This document shows positions 1 through 6,262 of a stretch of DNA of 6,765 bases, in pieces. Position numbers and translations under genes: made by a program. The notes beneath the pieces are model-generated. The model ran no database searches. It had not been told where the DNA came from and saw nothing but the letters and a program-made list of their open reading frames with translations. Origin of the DNA: Caldisericota bacterium (lineage in GTDB: Bacteria > Caldisericota > JANLFM01); NCBI GenBank assembly GCA_024655865.1, contig JANLFM010000048.1:1-6765 (forward strand). The letters are read 5' to 3'. Within the stretch, counting starts at the first letter, position 1, and every line of letters starts with the position of its first letter.

Positions 1-55
1 GCCGGCGTAGCTCAGCGGTAGAGCTGCTGAATCGTAATCAGCGGGTCGGGGGTTC
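1..55 (+). tRNA. Truncated tRNA-Thr (anticodon CGT), 5' part only
   Basis: The first 55 bases fold as a tRNA: acceptor 5' strand GCCGGCG (1-7), TA, D-stem GCTC/GAGC (10-13/21-24) around AGCGGTA, anticodon stem GCTGA/TCAGC (26-30/38-42) with loop ATCGTAA and anticodon CGT at 33-35, which reads Thr codon ACG. The variable loop GGGTC and T-stem GGGGG run into TTC, after which the tRNA pattern stops. No T-stem 3' strand and no acceptor partner CGCCGGC follow, so the gene is cut in the T-loop. The integrase ribosome binding site begins only five bases later, consistent with an attachment-site junction. It is probably nonfunctional unless the 3' half lies at the other end of the element. Confidence 0.8.
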
Positions 56-73
56 CCCTGGAGGTTAGATTTG

Positions 74-709
74 ATGCGGGCTACAGGCTCAAAAAATTTT
101 AGTGTTTTTCAAACGTCAGCAGGACAGTTAGTTTCCCTTTTTTTGCGCTTCTCAGAACTCAAAGGTCTCTCTCCCCGGACCATCTTCTACTATCAGGACA
201 AGTTGGGGCGCTTCCTCGAGCATCAGGGAGGAAGGTCTCCCATTGAAAAGCAGGACATCCTTTCCTTCATTCAGGCCCTGAAGGAAAGGGGCAACTCCCC
301 GGAGAGCGTGAATTGCTATCTCAGGGCGCTTAGGGTTTTCTTCCGCTGGGCGCACTCTCAGGAGCTCATCTCCTCAAACCCCATGCGGGGGATCCCCATG
401 CAGAAGACGCCGCATCTGCTCGTGGACATCCTCACCCCTTCCGACCTGCAGAAGGTCTTGGAGGCTATCAGGCGCACCGAAAGGAACAACCTGAGAAACC
501 AGGCCATCTTTTTCCTCCTTCTGGATACCGGGATACGCCCGGGTGAGCTTTGCAGCCTCACCTTAGAGGACCTAAATTTGAACGAGAACCTGGTCCGGGT
601 TTGCGGAAAGACGGGGGAGCGCCTCCTTCCCATCTCCCAGAAGACCCGGAGGGCCATTCTCTCCTATTTGCGCGTGCGCAAGGCTCCACTCTACTCTTCT
701 CCTACCTGA
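74..709 (+). pseudogene. Tyrosine recombinase/phage-type integrase, C-terminally truncated
   Basis: Site-specific tyrosine recombinase of the XerC/XerD/phage integrase family, which would cut and rejoin DNA at attachment sites. Residues about 15-106 form the SAM-like core-binding domain (motifs GLSPRTIFYY and LRALRVFFRWA). The catalytic domain starts near residue 118 and shows the first catalytic Arg (R155 in DTGIRPGE) and the beta-hairpin Lys (K179 in CGKTGERLLP). The frame stops at 211 aa, about 80-100 residues short of the family. The HxxR box, second His/Trp and the nucleophilic Tyr are missing, and I could not find them in the other frames of 700-880. ATG 74 is preferred over TTG 71, with GGAGG at 60-64 spaced nine bases. 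As drawn it should be inactive. It sits against the cut tRNA, the usual position of an element's integrase. Confidence 0.85.
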
Positions 710-1008: not shown

Positions 1009-1917
1009 ATGTCGCTCATAATTGACCCAGAACGAGGGAAAAGGGTAGCGGACCGCCTTTATTCCGCTTTCTCCTCCATTGGAATTCACGGGAGAAAGGA
1101 TATGCCCGAGGATTTAAGGCCGGAGGGTGTTGTTCAGGGCTCCCTGGAACATCTGCTCTTCATCACTCTCACCGTTTCCATCGACTACCAGCGCGATGCC
1201 ATTTCCTTGTGGGGGAATTCAAGAAAAACCTATGAAGACCCTGAGACGAGGTATCTCTTTTCTCCCAAGCGACTCTACGAAGTACCATTAGACAAAATAA
1301 TTAAGGACATGCAGAAACATGGGTTATCTAAAAAGAAAGAAAAAGATGCTTTAATTTGGCGGAGTGTGGGGATTTCTTTTTTTGAAAAATGGGAGGGTGA
1401 CCCTCGAAATTTCCTTTAAGACTGCAATTGGGATGCAATACAGATCTTGAAACGGTTGAAAGGCGATTCCCACGAATCTGGGGGAAAGGCCGAGTGGGAT
1501 TATCCCTACCTTCGGGGAGACAAGATCGGCCCCTTGTGGCTGAGGATGCTTAGGGACAACCTTGGTATATCCCAGCTGAGAAATTTGGATAAGGTTCCTA
1601 TTCCCGTAGATATACATGTGGCCAGAGCGACATTAACCACTGGAGTAGTGAGAGGGCGGTTCAGAGGAAGGTTAGAAGAATTATTCGAGGATATTCGAAA
1701 GGCTTGGTTGGAGAGCGTTAAAGGGCTGAAGATTAAAGACAGGGAGATGATAGCTTTAGACCTGGATGAACCTCTTTGGCATCTCTCTAAGTACGGTTGC
1801 CAGTCCCGAGAAAAAACCACTAATAATTGCTCCCAATTCCCAGACTGTGTTGCAAGGGAGTTTTGCTTAAAAGGGCAGATCAAAATAGCTAAAAATATGG
1901 TTGAGTTGAGCACGTGA
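1009..1917 (+). pseudogene. HhH-GPD [4Fe-4S] base-excision DNA glycosylase-like, internal TAA
   Basis: DNA glycosylase of the HhH-GPD superfamily (EndoIII/MutY/AGOG type), expected to flip out and remove a damaged or modified base. One frame runs 1009-1917 (about 302 codons) broken by TAA at 1417-1419; both halves are in the same frame and read smoothly across it (GDPRNFL, stop, DCNWDAIQIL). The N-terminal half has a helical segment (SLEHLLFITLTVSIDYQRDA). After the stop come the hairpin-like stretch LRGDKIGPLWLRML (candidate Lys172) and PIPVDIHVARATL with the catalytic Asp201. Four cysteines (264, 274, 280, 286; C-x9-C-x5-C-x5-C) should bind an iron-sulfur cluster. ATG 1009 is chosen over GTG 955 because AGGAGG lies nine bases upstream. 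Its 3' end overlaps the next gene by GTGA. Substrate unknown. The stop is a nonsense mutation, sequence error or, less likely, recoded. Confidence 0.75.
1417..1419 (+). other. In-frame TAA interrupting the glycosylase gene
   Basis: TAA lies between CTT (Leu136) and GAC (Asp138) of the glycosylase frame. The next TTG or ATG candidates downstream do not have a clear Shine-Dalgarno sequence: the TTG at 1447 is preceded by CAGATC. Efficient reinitiation therefore seems unlikely. A single base change would restore a sense codon. Confidence 0.85.
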
Positions 1918-2366
1918 AAACCTTGTGCATTGTCCCTTGTGGGAAGAAAAAGATATGGGATAAAGACCCAAAAGCGGGGCCCACCCAAGCCAGGAATGTG
2001 TATATCGGACCCTTTTCCCAAAAGTGTAGAGAATATGCCGAAAAATTTTACCCCTTCTCTTGGTGCATTCTTTCCGCAAAATATGGATTTCTGTTTCCAG
2101 AAGAAATAGTTAAGGGTCCTTACGATGTAAGTTTTAACGACAAAAGAACAAACCCCATCTCTCAAAAGGAGCTTTCCAATCAAGTCCAAGAAAAGGGCCT
2201 TGCATCTTTTGATAGGATCGTGATTTTGGGTGGGAAGAATTATGTCCGCATCATTGAGGATTTATTCCCTCAAAAGGAAGTTTATTCTCCCTTAAATGGT
2301 TGTCCCGGTCTCGGATTCATGATTAAAAAACTTAACGACTCGCTAAAAAGAGGAGTACCTCTTTGA
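1914..2366 (+). CDS. DUF6884-like protein (PCGKKK motif)
   Basis: A 150-residue soluble protein that I place in the DUF6884 family from its pattern: VPCGKKKIW (residues 7-15), YIGPFSQKCREYAEKF (30-45), WCILSAKYGFL (50-60), PYDVSF (69-74), RIVILGGKNY (101-110) and PLNGCPGLGFMIKKL (126-140). The PC-G/S-x-K opening resembles the lysine-containing motif of ArcS-type archaeosine synthases and YaaA/DUF328 proteins. A link to deazaguanine or DNA-base chemistry is therefore plausible but is inference. Start is GTG 1914, overlapping the glycosylase stop by four bases with no strong ribosome binding site, so translation is probably coupled to the upstream gene. The internal stop upstream could reduce its expression. 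No signal peptide or membrane segment. Length is normal for single-domain members. Confidence 0.7.
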   Translation: MKTLCIVPCGKKKIWDKDPKAGPTQARNVYIGPFSQKCREYAEKFYPFSWCILSAKYGFLFPEEIVKGPYDVSFNDKRTNPISQKELSNQVQEKGLASFDRIVILGGKNYVRIIEDLFPQKEVYSPLNGCPGLGFMIKKLNDSLKRGVPL

Positions 2367-2499
2367 TTCTCTCCAGAGGCCTGGTTTGTAATGCTTTCGG
2401 TTTTCAATTACTCGGACTTTCGGGTTTTCTTGAAATCCCAATTTTGGAACCCAAAGAGAAGTTATTCAAATTTAAGGGGAAATATCTCAAGGAGAGAAT
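2367..2499 (+). promoter_or_regulatory. Leader of the GIY-YIG gene with AAGGAG ribosome binding site
   Basis: A 133-bp gap separates the DUF6884-like gene from the nuclease gene. It carries an imperfect direct repeat, TTTCGGTTTTC near 2396 and TTTCGGGTTTTC near 2427. AAGGAG at 2489-2494 is five bases before the ATG at 2500. I see no clear -35/-10 pair, so the nuclease gene may be read through from the upstream pair or have a weak promoter of its own. Confidence 0.45.
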
Positions 2500-3072
2500 A
2501 TGGGCACTATAGAACTTCATTTCCGTGGGCCATTTAGTTTTTTGAATAAATCCAACTCCCTTTTTGAATGTGAATATGCCCGATCAAAGGGAATTTATCT
2601 CTGGACGATCAAATCCAATTTCGGTTATTTAATTCACTATATCGGGGAGACCGGCAATTTTGCCAAGCGGCACAGAGAGCACCTCATTAACCTTTTGGGG
2701 CTGAATTACGGGATTTTCGACGTTCCTCAGGCAAGAGAAGGGAGACAGGTTGTAATCTGGAGGGGGCTCTGGCGATTAAAATCCTCATTCCCCATTGAAG
2801 ACCTTTTAAGGGTATATCAGGAAAAAGCTTCCCAAGTAATTGAATATATTAATTCCCTGGATGTATTCTTTGCTGAACTTAATGTTGATTTAAATATCCG
2901 CAGGCATATCGAGGGTTCTATAGGCTGGAACCTGAGGAATAACTATCCGGATTTCAAAGTCCTCTATCCAGATGACAATCATATTGGAGCAAAGCCCGGA
3001 AAAATGAAGAAGAAATTAGTGATTACCTCCCATGAGAAAATTCTGGGCTTGGATCCAGAAATTGAACTATGA
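2500..3072 (+). CDS. GIY-YIG nuclease-like protein
   Basis: A 190-residue protein with the hallmarks of a GIY-YIG endonuclease, a fold that makes metal-dependent DNA breaks in restriction, repair and homing enzymes. GIY is at residues 31-33 (KGIYLWTI) and YIG at 47-49 (HYIGETGNF). The catalytic-type basic residues are in AKRHREHL (55-62), with Arg57 or Arg59 the likely key Arg. The probable metal-binding Glu is E138 in RRHIEGSIGWNLR, followed by N144. The roughly 80 residues between YIG and the Glu are longer than in the minimal UvrC-type domain and resemble restriction-type members such as Eco29kI. The C-terminus is Lys-rich (KMKKK, 168-172), possibly DNA-binding. It has a good ribosome binding site and lies in line with the glycosylase and DUF6884-like genes. 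Its target is unknown; restriction of foreign or modified DNA is inference. Confidence 0.8.
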   Translation: MGTIELHFRGPFSFLNKSNSLFECEYARSKGIYLWTIKSNFGYLIHYIGETGNFAKRHREHLINLLGLNYGIFDVPQAREGRQVVIWRGLWRLKSSFPIEDLLRVYQEKASQVIEYINSLDVFFAELNVDLNIRRHIEGSIGWNLRNNYPDFKVLYPDDNHIGAKPGKMKKKLVITSHEKILGLDPEIEL

Positions 3073-3272: not shown

Positions 3273-4288
3273 CTAAAGGGTAGGGAGTTTACCCAGATAA
3301 ACCAAAGCCTGATAAATTATGCTTGCCGCTTCCATCCTGGTAATAGGTTGCTCCGGCCTGAAGGTCCCGTCCTCGTAGCCCGTGACGATTCCCAGATCGT
3401 GAAGAACCAGCAACATCTTCCGCGCCTTGCCGTCCCAGAGAGTAGGGGAGAGGTCGGGAAAGGGCTCCGGGGCAGGTGACCCATTCCCGCACGGAGGGGA
3501 TTCCCAAAAACCCGAACTCCCTGAACCCGAGGATCCACTGCACAATCCCTCCCCAGGAGAAGGACTCCCGGAACCCCCGGGGCCGGAGCCTTGCCCCTCG
3601 CCTTGAGCAGGACTCCCCGAACCCGAAGCAGAGCTCCCCGCACCCGCAGAGCCTAGGGACCCCTCGCTCCCCTTCAGGCAGTCCCCTTGAGCGCTCCCGC
3701 TCCTTGAATCCCCACTCCCTCTCTTCCAGGAACTGATGAAGTCCTTGACCCCCAGGGCGATGGCGTAGGCGCACCTCTTGAGGAACTCGGATGAGCGCAG
3801 GAGCTTCTCCTCCTCGGGGTTGGAGATGAACATGACCTCCAGAAGTACCCCCGGCCCCCTGAAGTTCCTCAGGACCCCCATCCCTTCCGTCCAGGTGGGG
3901 TCACTCGCCGGGTGCCAGTCCGCATCGTCCTTGATCCCCCGGGAGACCGCCTTCGTCTCCGAGAGCAGAACTTTTAGGACCGCGCTCGCCAGCCTCTTTC
4001 CCTCTTCGTTCCCGTGGGCGAACCAGGCCTCAATCCCTCTGGCCTGGGGGCTTCCCGAGTTGGAATGCAGGGAGATCAGGATATCGCAGCCCTCCCTGGA
4101 AGCCTGGGCACCCCTCTCCGAGGAATACAGGCCCCGGTCGCAGATCAGGGCCTCATCCCCCAGGGCAGGAGGAAGTTCCCCAGGTGAACCGCCAAAGCCA
4201 GGGTGACGTCAGCCTCCTTCAACCCCGATGGGCCTATGGCCCCGGGGTCCCCATCCTTCCCGTGTCCGGGATCAATCCCGATCTTCAT
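3273..4288 (-). pseudogene. N-acetylmuramoyl-L-alanine amidase (Amidase_3)-SLH fusion, frameshifted
   Basis: Zinc amidase that would cleave the bond between MurNAc and the stem peptide of peptidoglycan. Restoring one base near 4166 gives about 338 aa. The Amidase_3 domain (1-188) has Zn ligands H9 (DPGHG), E25 and H75 (ISLHSN), and the catalytic Glu about E151 in LLEVMFISNPEE. A Gly/Ser/Pro linker (about 190-279) follows, then an SLH domain (about 281-333; LGIVTGYEDGTFRP and ITRMEAA) that normally anchors proteins to cell-wall polysaccharide. ATG 4288 has AAAGGAGGG upstream. The first frame stops after 47 codons (TGA 4147-4145), and the other frame is open from before there to 3273. No signal peptide is visible, so release through the holin-like neighbour is plausible. 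The shift is mutation, sequence error or -1 frameshifting. Confidence 0.85.
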
Positions 4289-4486
4289 TGAAACCCTCCT
4301 TTCCAGGCTTTAAAGGAGAAAACCCTTTTCCCTCGGTGGCCTCCCATTCCCCATCCCCAGGGAAAAGGGCCTTCACCGCGGAGCCTCTCCCAACCTTCCC
4401 CCCTGAGCCTCCCAAGACTTCCTCCACCGAGGCTCTCCCCGTCCCCAGGGAAAACCTCTCCCCGGCCTTCCACCTTTTCCCTGTCC
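4289..4486 (-). other. Holin-amidase intergenic, purine-rich on minus
   Basis: About 198 bp with no supported gene. The minus strand is very G/A-rich and repeats CCCTGGGGA near 4357-4363 and 4443-4449. GAGCCTC (4381) and GAGGCTC (4429) form a distant inverted pair. The amidase ribosome binding site lies at the 4300 end. Confidence 0.4.
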
Positions 4487-4750
4487 TCACTTTCCCGCAA
4501 GAGTGTCCTGGCCCGTCGAGGAAAACGCACCGGGACCGTTCCCTCCGGGGACATCTCCCCTGATCCCCTGGGAGCCCTTGCTGGAGATCGCCGAGATTAC
4601 CCCGTGGGCGTTCCCGAAGACGTAGCCCAAGGAAGCGGAAAGCAGAGCCACCACCGCCTGGGAATCCAGCTTCCCCGCATATCCCAGGATGATCGCCGCA
4701 GTGCAGACGATCACCACCACGGCCAGCTTCGTCCAACTGGAAATCTCCAT
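4487..4750 (-). CDS. Small two-helix membrane protein, holin-like
   Basis: An 87-residue protein with two predicted transmembrane helices, about residues 8-24 (LAVVVIVCTAAIILGYA) and 33-48 (VVALLSASLGYVFGNA), separated by a short turn with K27, D29 and Q31, and a polar Gly/Ser-rich tail from 57 to 87. Size, topology and position directly before a cell-wall amidase fit a phage holin or a holin-like small membrane protein, which would let the signal-less amidase reach the wall. I do not recognise a named holin family. The frame is open upstream to 5119, but ATG 4750 is chosen because AAGGAGGTG lies just upstream and the upstream extension is repeat-derived, non-protein-like sequence. It starts 28 bases below a perfect 13-bp hairpin. 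Confidence 0.65.
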   Translation of the reverse strand: MEISSWTKLAVVVIVCTAAIILGYAGKLDSQAVVALLSASLGYVFGNAHGVISAISSKGSQGIRGDVPGGNGPGAFSSTGQDTLAGK

Positions 4751-4769
4751 TTCTTCACCTCCTTTATGC

Positions 4770-4798
4770 CCCAGGGGAAGGTGAAACCTTCCCCTGGG
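4770..4798 (-). promoter_or_regulatory. Perfect 13-bp hairpin just before holin-like ribosome binding site
   Basis: CCCAGGGGAAGGT (4770-4782) pairs perfectly with ACCTTCCCCTGGG (4786-4798) around a three-base loop. On the minus strand it ends about ten bases before the AAGGAGGTG of the holin-like gene. There is no U-tract, so a role in mRNA stability or translation control is as likely as termination. Confidence 0.6.
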
Positions 4799-4846
4799 AA
4801 CCCCTTTAATTACCCCGATTTTTGCTCGAGAAAATTCCCCTTTCTT

Positions 4847-4938
4847 CCTGGGGGCCCCTTTTTCCGGGACCGGTTCATGCTCCAGGGAAATATTCCATTT
4901 TCCCTGGGAGCCCCCTTTTTCCGGGACCCCATTCATGC
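4847..4938 (-). repeat. Two direct repeat copies, about 35 bp each
   Basis: Copy 1 (4847-4880) and copy 2 (4903-4938) share CCTGGG[G/A]GCCCC followed by TTTTTCCGGGACC and TTCATGC, with small differences. The 56-bp spacing leaves room for the hairpin at 4879-4911 between them. A third partial CCCTGGG follows at 4958. Confidence 0.7.
4879..4911 (-). repeat. Hairpin, 12-bp stem with one bulge
   Basis: GCTCCAGGGAAA (4879-4890) pairs with TTTCCCTGGGAGC (4899-4911) with one extra G and an eight-base loop. It shares the CCAGGGAA core with the hairpin at 4770-4798. Confidence 0.55.
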
Positions 4939-5022
4939 CCCGAAAAACTGGCGCATTTCCCTGGGTAACTGCCGGTATTTCCCCGGTTACTTTATAGAAC
5001 CTCCGGAAGCGGGCCTTCCCCC

Positions 5023-5041
5023 GAGGCTCCCCCGGAGCCTC
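5023..5041 (-). repeat. Perfect 8-bp hairpin
   Basis: GAGGCTCC (5023-5030) and GGAGCCTC (5034-5041) are perfect inverted repeats around CCC. No U-tract on either strand. Confidence 0.5.
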
Positions 5042-5162
5042 AATCAAGGGGCGGGCAGGCCTTTCCCGGAAAAGAGCCCAGGGCCCTCTACGGGGGCCTA
5101 ATCCGCCCCTCTCCCCCACGCGCCGGAATTGAACCCCGGCTTCACTTTCTACCGCTTTCCTC

Positions 5163-5180
5163 GGGGATCCCCAGATCCCC
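5163..5180 (-). terminator. Possible terminator hairpin after DUF2922 gene
   Basis: GGGGATC (5163-5169) pairs with GATCCCC (5174-5180) around CCCA, 26 bases past the DUF2922 stop. The palindrome GCCTTAAGGC (5203-5212) spans the stop codon itself. Neither is followed by T residues on the minus strand, so termination is uncertain. Confidence 0.35.
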
Positions 5181-5205
5181 TCAGCCTGTCTTTCTCAAGC
5201 CAGCC

Positions 5206-5430
5206 TTAAGGCAGAAGGGGGGTGACGGTGGTCCCTGAGATGTAGGCCTCCTTGACCCCCGTCAGCTCCCCGGTGGTCGCCAGGATCACGTTTTTGCTGA
5301 CGATGTCCTGCATCACCTGGGCCACCTCAGCGCTCGTCAGGTTGTTCCTGGGGTCGCGGAGGGAGATGGTGTGCGTCCCACCCCCTTCAGTGTTGAAGAC
5401 CAGCTTGAGGTAAGTCCTGGTCTCAGCCAT
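5206..5430 (-). CDS. DUF2922 family protein
   Basis: A 74-residue protein matching the DUF2922 pattern: an N-terminal beta strand (TYLKLVFNTEGG), THTISLRDPRNNLTSAEV, the helix AQVMQDIVSKNVI, a TTGELTGVKEAYI strand and a final TTVTPLLP. Length is normal for the family. Function is unknown. In Bacillota, DUF2922 genes commonly sit with DUF1659 genes, as here, in small operons that may be phage-derived or chromosomal. No membrane segment or signal. ATG 5430 has AAAGGAGAAGG four bases upstream. It is 67 bp downstream of the 113-aa gene and probably cotranscribed with it. Confidence 0.85.
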   Translation of the reverse strand: MAETRTYLKLVFNTEGGGTHTISLRDPRNNLTSAEVAQVMQDIVSKNVILATTGELTGVKEAYISGTTVTPLLP

Positions 5431-5497
5431 TTCCTTCTCCTTTCTTTCCTTTGTCCCTCAGTCCGGATACCCGGGAACCTTCAGGTCCGACCCCCGA

Positions 5498-5839
5498 CTA
5501 CGGGGTGGAGGTCGGCAGGAACGGGCTGGGTGGGTTGGTGCTGTTCTCCTTCACCCAGGAGACGAACCTTCCCACGTACAGGTTGAAGGCGCTCATGGGC
5601 TTCCCTGAAGCCAGAGCCGCGGCTTCCCAGGCGGATCTCGTGGTCTGATCCTCCAGGTGCCACTGGCTCACCGCCGCGCTGAAGGCGTTCCTGATCACCA
5701 TCTGTTCCGCGGTCCTCGGGTTCATGGGGATCACGTGGTTTCTTACGTACCTGATCCCCTTCCACTTGGCGTAGACGAGCTGGTTGGCGTAGGTCCCCGA
5801 AGCATCGATGGACATGAGCGGTGCGTATACCTTGGCCAT
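5498..5839 (-). CDS. Hypothetical phage-structural-like protein, 113 aa
   Basis: Unnamed 113-residue protein. It has an N-terminal beta-like segment (VYAPLMSIDASGTYANQLVYAKWKGIRYVR, residues 4-33 in part), the stretch HVIPMNPRTAEQMVIRNAFSAAVSQW (34-59), helices around TTRSAWEAAALASG and MSAFNLYVGRFVSW, and a Pro/Ser/Thr tail. The order G-x-Y-x-N-Q-L-V-Y-x-x-W-K-G, then N-P-x-T-x-E-Q and W-x-x-x-A resembles small repeat proteins annotated as phage or structural proteins, where this unit recurs. I recall the pattern but cannot name the family with confidence. A strong AAGGAGGTG at 5845-5853 precedes ATG 5839. It lies between DUF1659 and DUF2922. Confidence 0.7.
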   Translation of the reverse strand: MAKVYAPLMSIDASGTYANQLVYAKWKGIRYVRNHVIPMNPRTAEQMVIRNAFSAAVSQWHLEDQTTRSAWEAAALASGKPMSAFNLYVGRFVSWVKENSTNPPSPFLPTSTP

Positions 5840-6037
5840 CTTTCCACCTCCTTTCCAAAACCGGAAGATCCCCCATGCGGTCCCCCGGCCTGTGCCTCAA
5901 CTGCCCTCCCCTTGGGGAATCCCTCCGGCCCTGTCTCCTCAGGCTGAATCCCCGGGGGAATCTCCCCTTGTCCTTCAGCCCCCTTCAAGGCCAGCTCCGT
6001 TCCTCCCCCAGGAAGGGCCGCTTTTTAAACCTGCTCC
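5840..6037 (-). other. Intergenic spacer, no gene seen
   Basis: 198 bp between the DUF1659 and 113-aa genes. Apart from the downstream ribosome binding site, nothing protein-like is visible. A minus frame from 5988 is low-complexity and runs over the 113-aa gene in another frame. A short inverted pair GCTCC/GGAGC surrounds the DUF1659 stop region (6035-6055). Confidence 0.4.
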
Positions 6038-6262
6038 TTAAATGCTCAGGAGCTCCACCGTGTCCACCACCTGAACTGTGTACAGGGGGTACTGCAGCAG
6101 CCCCGCCAGTTCCTCCGCCATCTGGTAGAGGTCCTCGGCCAGGGCCTCGGTCTTGATCCTGGAGACGGAGAGGGATCCCACGATCACCTTCCCGCTCTCC
6201 GGATCGGTCCCCTTGTTCAGCTTCAGGGTGAGCCTCTTGCTGATGGGATTCTCGTTCACCAT
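6038..6262 (-). CDS. DUF1659 family protein
   Basis: A 74-residue protein with the DUF1659 layout: a basic N-terminus (NENPISKRLTLKLNKG), a turn with the strand GKVIVGSLSVSRIK, a helical DLYQMAEELAGLLQYPL and the closing strands YTVQVVDTVELLSI. The motif TDPESGKVI after LNKG and A-x-x-L-x-x-L are typical. Function is unknown. The family is restricted mainly to Bacillota and is often paired with DUF2922, the partner found 600 bp downstream. ATG 6262 has AAAGGAGG at 6271-6278. It is the first clear gene of the minus-strand set, 315 bp downstream of the LexA-box promoter. No signal peptide or membrane helix. Confidence 0.85.
   Translation of the reverse strand: MVNENPISKRLTLKLNKGTDPESGKVIVGSLSVSRIKTEALAEDLYQMAEELAGLLQYPLYTVQVVDTVELLSI

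Follow-up and report, generated by a model that had tools for sequence, protein, structure and literature searches.

The stretch of DNA considered here (the window, 6,765 nucleotides) comes from a Caldisericota assembly of 1.8 Mb and high completeness, and it opens with a tRNA-Thr(CGU)-like 5' fragment (positions 1-54, plus strand) that was read from the sequence, is cut in the T arm and is a possible attachment-site remnant; ARAGORN reported no whole tRNA in the window. Directly behind the fragment is a truncated tyrosine integrase gene (71-709, plus strand), retaining the SAM-like N-terminal domain and the start of the catalytic domain (PF00589, E=3.8e-12). A preliminary description of this DNA had placed an integrase and a cut tRNA beside the genes of interest, as is indeed the case, and the two together resemble what is left of an element that had integrated at a tRNA gene. 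Three genes follow on the plus strand: that of an AGOG/Qng1-like HhH-GPD glycosylase (1009-1917, with an ATG at 1009 and AGGAGG just 5' of it), broken by one in-frame TAA; an intact DUF6884 (YaaA-like) gene with a GTG start (1914-2366); and an ORF for a GIY-YIG domain (2500-3072). The GC content of the glycosylase/DUF6884 pair is 44%, versus 60% for the contig's right half, and the minus strand from 3273 to 6262 holds GC-rich genes that contrast with the AT-rich left of the contig, ORFs that were named by eye as an SLH-domain protein, a small membrane protein, and DUF2922-like and DUF1659-like proteins.

The assignment of the first of these genes to the HhH-GPD glycosylases, made in the preliminary description, holds on the grounds of fold, profile and literature, but the gene is not a single ORF, as an in-frame TAA at 1417-1419 (codon 137) divides it into two frames, 1009-1419 and 1420-1917. 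Both predicted active-site residues (Lys and Asp) and all four cysteines are encoded 3' of this stop, so the window's copy is probably either non-functional or mis-sequenced. In intact relatives the codon is CAA, AAA, GAA/GAG or GCC. The window and an archaeal copy (L022) diverge mostly at third codon positions on both sides of the stop; since this bias continues past it, the second half was under selection until recently, and the TAA is therefore a nonsense mutation of very recent date or else an error of the assembly. The match of the window's frame to the AGOG profile (PF09171) is weak and below cut-off (E=0.0019, 18 bits vs 26.1, over positions 167-238 of 248 only), yet the frame is real, given that intact relatives are 54-71% identical. 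Broken copies are common, i.e., those of the window, L020, L017 (in its DUF6884), L027, L028, G090, G129 and G1394. In three lineages the breaks in the glycosylase cluster (the TAA at codon 137 in the window, a TAA at codon 139 in L020, 8415-8417, and a frameshift near codon 150 in L037), a closeness that is possibly due to chance. Programmed recoding of the TAA, an idea raised by the second TAA in L020, was dropped, as several other copies are frameshifted or mere remnants and the codons replaced differ.

The DUF6884 gene overlaps the upstream frame by GTGA (1914-1917), exactly as had been described, and its product exceeds the Pfam cut-off (PF21818, E=5.5e-16, 59.4 bits vs 30), so that the family assignment, in which the literature concurs, stands. 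It has the motifs CGKKK (CxxxK) and LSAKYG (LSAxxG), and it also matches the PADLOC candidate model PDC-M57A (8.6e-17); a literature search on PDC-M57 found no papers. For this widespread family the Pfam curators have gone no further than to suggest a part in DNA repair, drawing on a model and a lesion-interaction screen. One member, YfjM, was found among the interactors of abasic and RNA-base lesions, and YaaA is active in oxidative stress (PMC11701544). DpdC, which hydrolyses a 7-deazaguanine base in DNA, is annotated with DUF6884 in one paper (PMC11888242), while a second assigns it the related DUF328 (PMC12839542). The family has another partner in a Listeria record (L007, 4977-5462), where a DUF6884 gene overlaps a co-directional gene for a GNAT acetyltransferase.

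The glycosylase and DUF6884 genes form a real unit that recurs across distant bacteria and archaea. Among 29 genomes, picked for having the glycosylase and not for DUF6884, 16 of the 18 DUF6884 genes over cut-off touch the glycosylase gene, where about 0.03 would be expected. Close relatives repeat the window's arrangement, the DUF6884 gene following at once and overlapping by the same 4 bases (L014, L015, L016, L022, L023, L026 and others); L018 encodes the two as one in-frame fusion (452 aa), as does L045 from a distant lineage, and a member of the Chloroflexota (L048) has them fused in the reverse order. Convergent pairs are found on a haloarchaeal plasmid (L004), in a Halobacteriota genome (L040) and in L024. 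At least three label changes fall on supported branches of the DUF6884 tree, so the glycosylase was joined by DUF6884 genes of different lineages on no fewer than three occasions. Some 50% of the glycosylase loci have no adjacent DUF6884. In the Chloroflexota genome G875 the glycosylase occurs twice, at a distance of about 36 kb (L048/L061 and L051/L062), once in the reversed fusion and once alone. No glycosylase was found within about 4 kb of DUF6884 on some 70 viral contigs, so the link between the families is one-sided. Our search found no named system with this pair, and none of the PADLOC models matches the glycosylase.

The distribution of the glycosylase is rare and patchy. A scan of about 85,000 genomes produced 17 loci, most of them 54-71% identical, with hosts in WOR-3, TA06, Nitrospirota, Omnitrophota, Diapherotrites, Argoarchaeum, Methanoliparum, Methanosarcinales and others, and searches within phyla, which count the genomes already known, found it in 10 of 294, 3 of 245, 2 of 147, 3 of 301, 1 of 237 and 2 of 395 genomes (0.4-3.4% per phylum searched). 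In the window's own phylum it is present in the window's genome only. Archaea and bacteria are interleaved in the glycosylase tree, whose supported branches require four or more changes between the two, and the module has crossed phyla recently and has also crossed the border between the two domains: the glycosylase DNA of L014 and L015, from the different candidate phyla WOR-3 and TA06, is 96% identical (dS 0.07), and the archaeal L022 and a Nitrospirota copy (G575) are separated by a dS of 0.29. The phage and viral collections contained no close glycosylase relatives, only divergent haloviral ones. Distant relatives with no DUF6884 are present in Halovirus HGTV-1, where the protein is annotated as endonuclease III, and on another viral contig (L005, 4986-5708; L011, 2264-3019).

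By structural modelling the glycosylase has the HhH-GPD fold, closest to Qng1/DUF2419 and then to EndoIII and MutY. The model was that of the L018 fusion, with a pLDDT of about 90 in the glycosylase half and low confidence in the DUF6884 half, and its best structural match was Qng1/DUF2419 (7u07 and related; Z 17.4, 252 residues, rmsd 4.6), followed at Z 12-14 by EndoIII (Z 13.6 over 209 residues), MutY (Z ~13) and NTHL1, with the thermostable thymine-DNA glycosylase 1kea also among the matches (Z 12.8). The predicted catalytic residues K172 and D201 are invariant, and D201 aligns with D172 of the AGOG structure 1xqo, a catalytic residue of that enzyme. By sequence AGOG is the nearest family, matched by all 13 members (best E=4.9e-9), albeit mostly below cut-off, a threshold that just one copy in the 29 genomes exceeds (L025, genome G073). 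The Q_salvage profile (PF10343) gave a trace match in one of the 13 members (E=0.15, not over cut-off).

The preliminary description had called for a search for enrichment near known defence genes, and such enrichment was found: a type I specificity subunit (HsdS) lies within 8 kb of the glycosylase in 5 of 29 loci versus 0.32 expected (P ~1e-5, from a manual count of genes that makes no correction for mobile islands). Type I genes were identified individually near L013, L015, L020, L028 and L057, a BsaWI-type II system near L014, an EcoP15I-like type III system with DUF262 near L058, GmrSD near L053 and a REase-like protein near L023; in L014 and L015 an N4/N6 methyltransferase is directly downstream. 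The pooled PADLOC matches of the neighbourhoods include HmaB, PglZ, BrxA and AbiEi. Placement in defence islands is thus supported by the HsdS enrichment and by the variety of defence genes nearby. Several copies sit among housekeeping or metabolic genes, e.g., cobalamin synthesis genes (L017) and a histone-deacetylase-like gene (L016).

A module that jumps between bacteria and archaea, is occasionally fused and often has restriction genes as neighbours is probably a unit of DNA defence or DNA repair. We consider that the copy in the window is a decaying one, of a mobile module of two proteins, glycosylase and DUF6884, that act in base excision, in defence against modified or damaged DNA rather than in housekeeping repair, and put the probability of this joint reading at roughly 0.45. 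The two proteins plausibly both handle a flipped base in DNA: the glycosylase, as an HhH-GPD N-glycosidase, would flip out and remove a particular modified or damaged base, and DUF6884 would bind the same site, whether as the base in its flipped state or as the abasic site left by its removal, either recognising it for the glycosylase or processing it. The bases removed would be those of foreign DNA whose modification evades the neighbouring restriction system, and the abasic sites left behind would block its replication. Defence is preferred over repair on account of the mobility, the frequent breakage or loss and the restriction-modification neighbours of the module. Counted against it are the missing PADLOC model, the housekeeping neighbours, the loci that have no DUF6884 (about half), the low confidence of the DUF6884 half of the model, and the tendency of restriction genes to gather on mobile islands for reasons besides common function. 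A bolder version of the defence reading would be a new class of mobile immune module common to bacteria and archaea: a glycosidase of the HhH-GPD fold, akin to Qng1, would act together with a DpdC/YaaA-like partner to recognise a hypermodified base, perhaps a 7-deazaguanine, and cut it out of restriction-resistant viral DNA; this we regard as unlikely.

Repair is a close rival to defence, if a less probable one. It would have the pair as horizontally spread base-excision repair of ordinary damage, with an AGOG-like enzyme removing an oxidised or deaminated base, DUF6884 handling the abasic site, and no part in defence. It draws support from the nearest sequence family being an 8-oxoguanine glycosylase, from the lesion and oxidative-stress associations of YfjM and YaaA, from the copies amid housekeeping genes and from a separate canonical AGOG gene being found in none of the 29 genomes, and it is opposed by the patchy spread, the very recent transfer between phyla, the frequent decay, the enrichment near restriction genes, and hosts that are, judged by name, apparently anaerobes for the most part. 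Improbable, in our estimation, is a more particular repair role, in which the pair would mend damage caused by neighbouring methyltransferases, e.g., deaminated methylcytosine, as restriction-linked thermophilic mismatch glycosylases do. The methyltransferases directly downstream in L014 and L015 and the fold match to 1kea would fit such a role, but the restriction neighbours are mostly type I systems of adenine methylation, which yield no deaminated cytosine, and many copies have no methyltransferase nearby. Less probable still is that the pair makes or salvages 7-deazaguanine, whether in nucleotide salvage as Qng1 does or as a step of DNA hypermodification as with DpdC. The top fold match, to Qng1 with queuosine, and the DUF6884 annotation of DpdC speak for it, but the lone Q_salvage trace does not, and the scanned neighbours, for which the pooled output gives the top families only, showed no recognisable gene for tgt or for preQ0 synthesis. 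In the Dpd system the DUF6884 protein has DpdA (a TGT) and DpdB beside it, and no TGT was seen among those same neighbours.

The preliminary description had gone further and proposed that all three genes, GIY-YIG included, formed one cassette of defence or base targeting. The third ORF does have readable GIY, YIG and RxxxH motifs and so the character that had been claimed for it, but against Pfam it falls short of the curated threshold (PF01541, E=0.0021, 18.7 bits vs 22.6), and its single-sequence fold (mean pLDDT 37) was unusable. None of the 16 other glycosylase-carrying genomes searched has this GIY-YIG gene, nor was it present in the phage, plasmid and viral collections searched, so at this sampling the trio is refuted by the test of recurrent neighbourhood that the description itself had set; GIY-YIG is a chance neighbour in the window, outside the conserved module, and a three-gene cassette, for which there speak the common direction of the genes and their lying within about 2 kb, is scarcely credible. 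The part of the proposal that survives is the pair, which, being recurrent, fused, mobile and enriched near restriction genes, fits a role of that kind.

For DUF6884, the recurrent fusion and operon with a base-excision enzyme provides a first concrete biochemical partner, making its function testable. Most members of the YaaA/DUF6884 family (YfjM and DpdC among its proteins), including the roughly 70 from viral contigs, are encoded away from any such glycosylase, but the window's protein has in common with them CxxxK, LSAxxG and a PF21818 match over cut-off. On the glycosylase side, the AGOG 8-oxoguanine DNA glycosylases have the PIPVD segment with the catalytic Asp in common with the family described here, but the match is mainly to the C-terminal third, and our family adds a Cys4 tail and the DUF6884 partner. 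The queuosine 5'-monophosphate glycosidase Qng1/DUF2419, the best structural match over residues 1-296, likewise has an N-terminal extension on an HhH-GPD core, but there is no significant sequence match, it acts on a nucleotide and not on DNA, and the literature found describes no DUF6884 partner for it. EndoIII and MutY have the same fold, and the C-terminal Cys4 of our glycosylase is placed like their iron-sulphur site, but the spacing is C-x9-C-x5-C-x5-C, as against C-x6-C-x2-C-x5-C in EndoIII and MutY. Anti-phage glycosylases do exist (PMC11078745), and should the module prove defensive, the few that are known would gain an HhH-GPD pair and an extension to archaea. Closest in concept is Brig1, a defence-island DNA glycosylase that removes a modified base to leave abasic sites behind, although in structure it best matches uracil DNA glycosylases rather than enzymes of the HhH-GPD type, and the descriptions have it acting alone.
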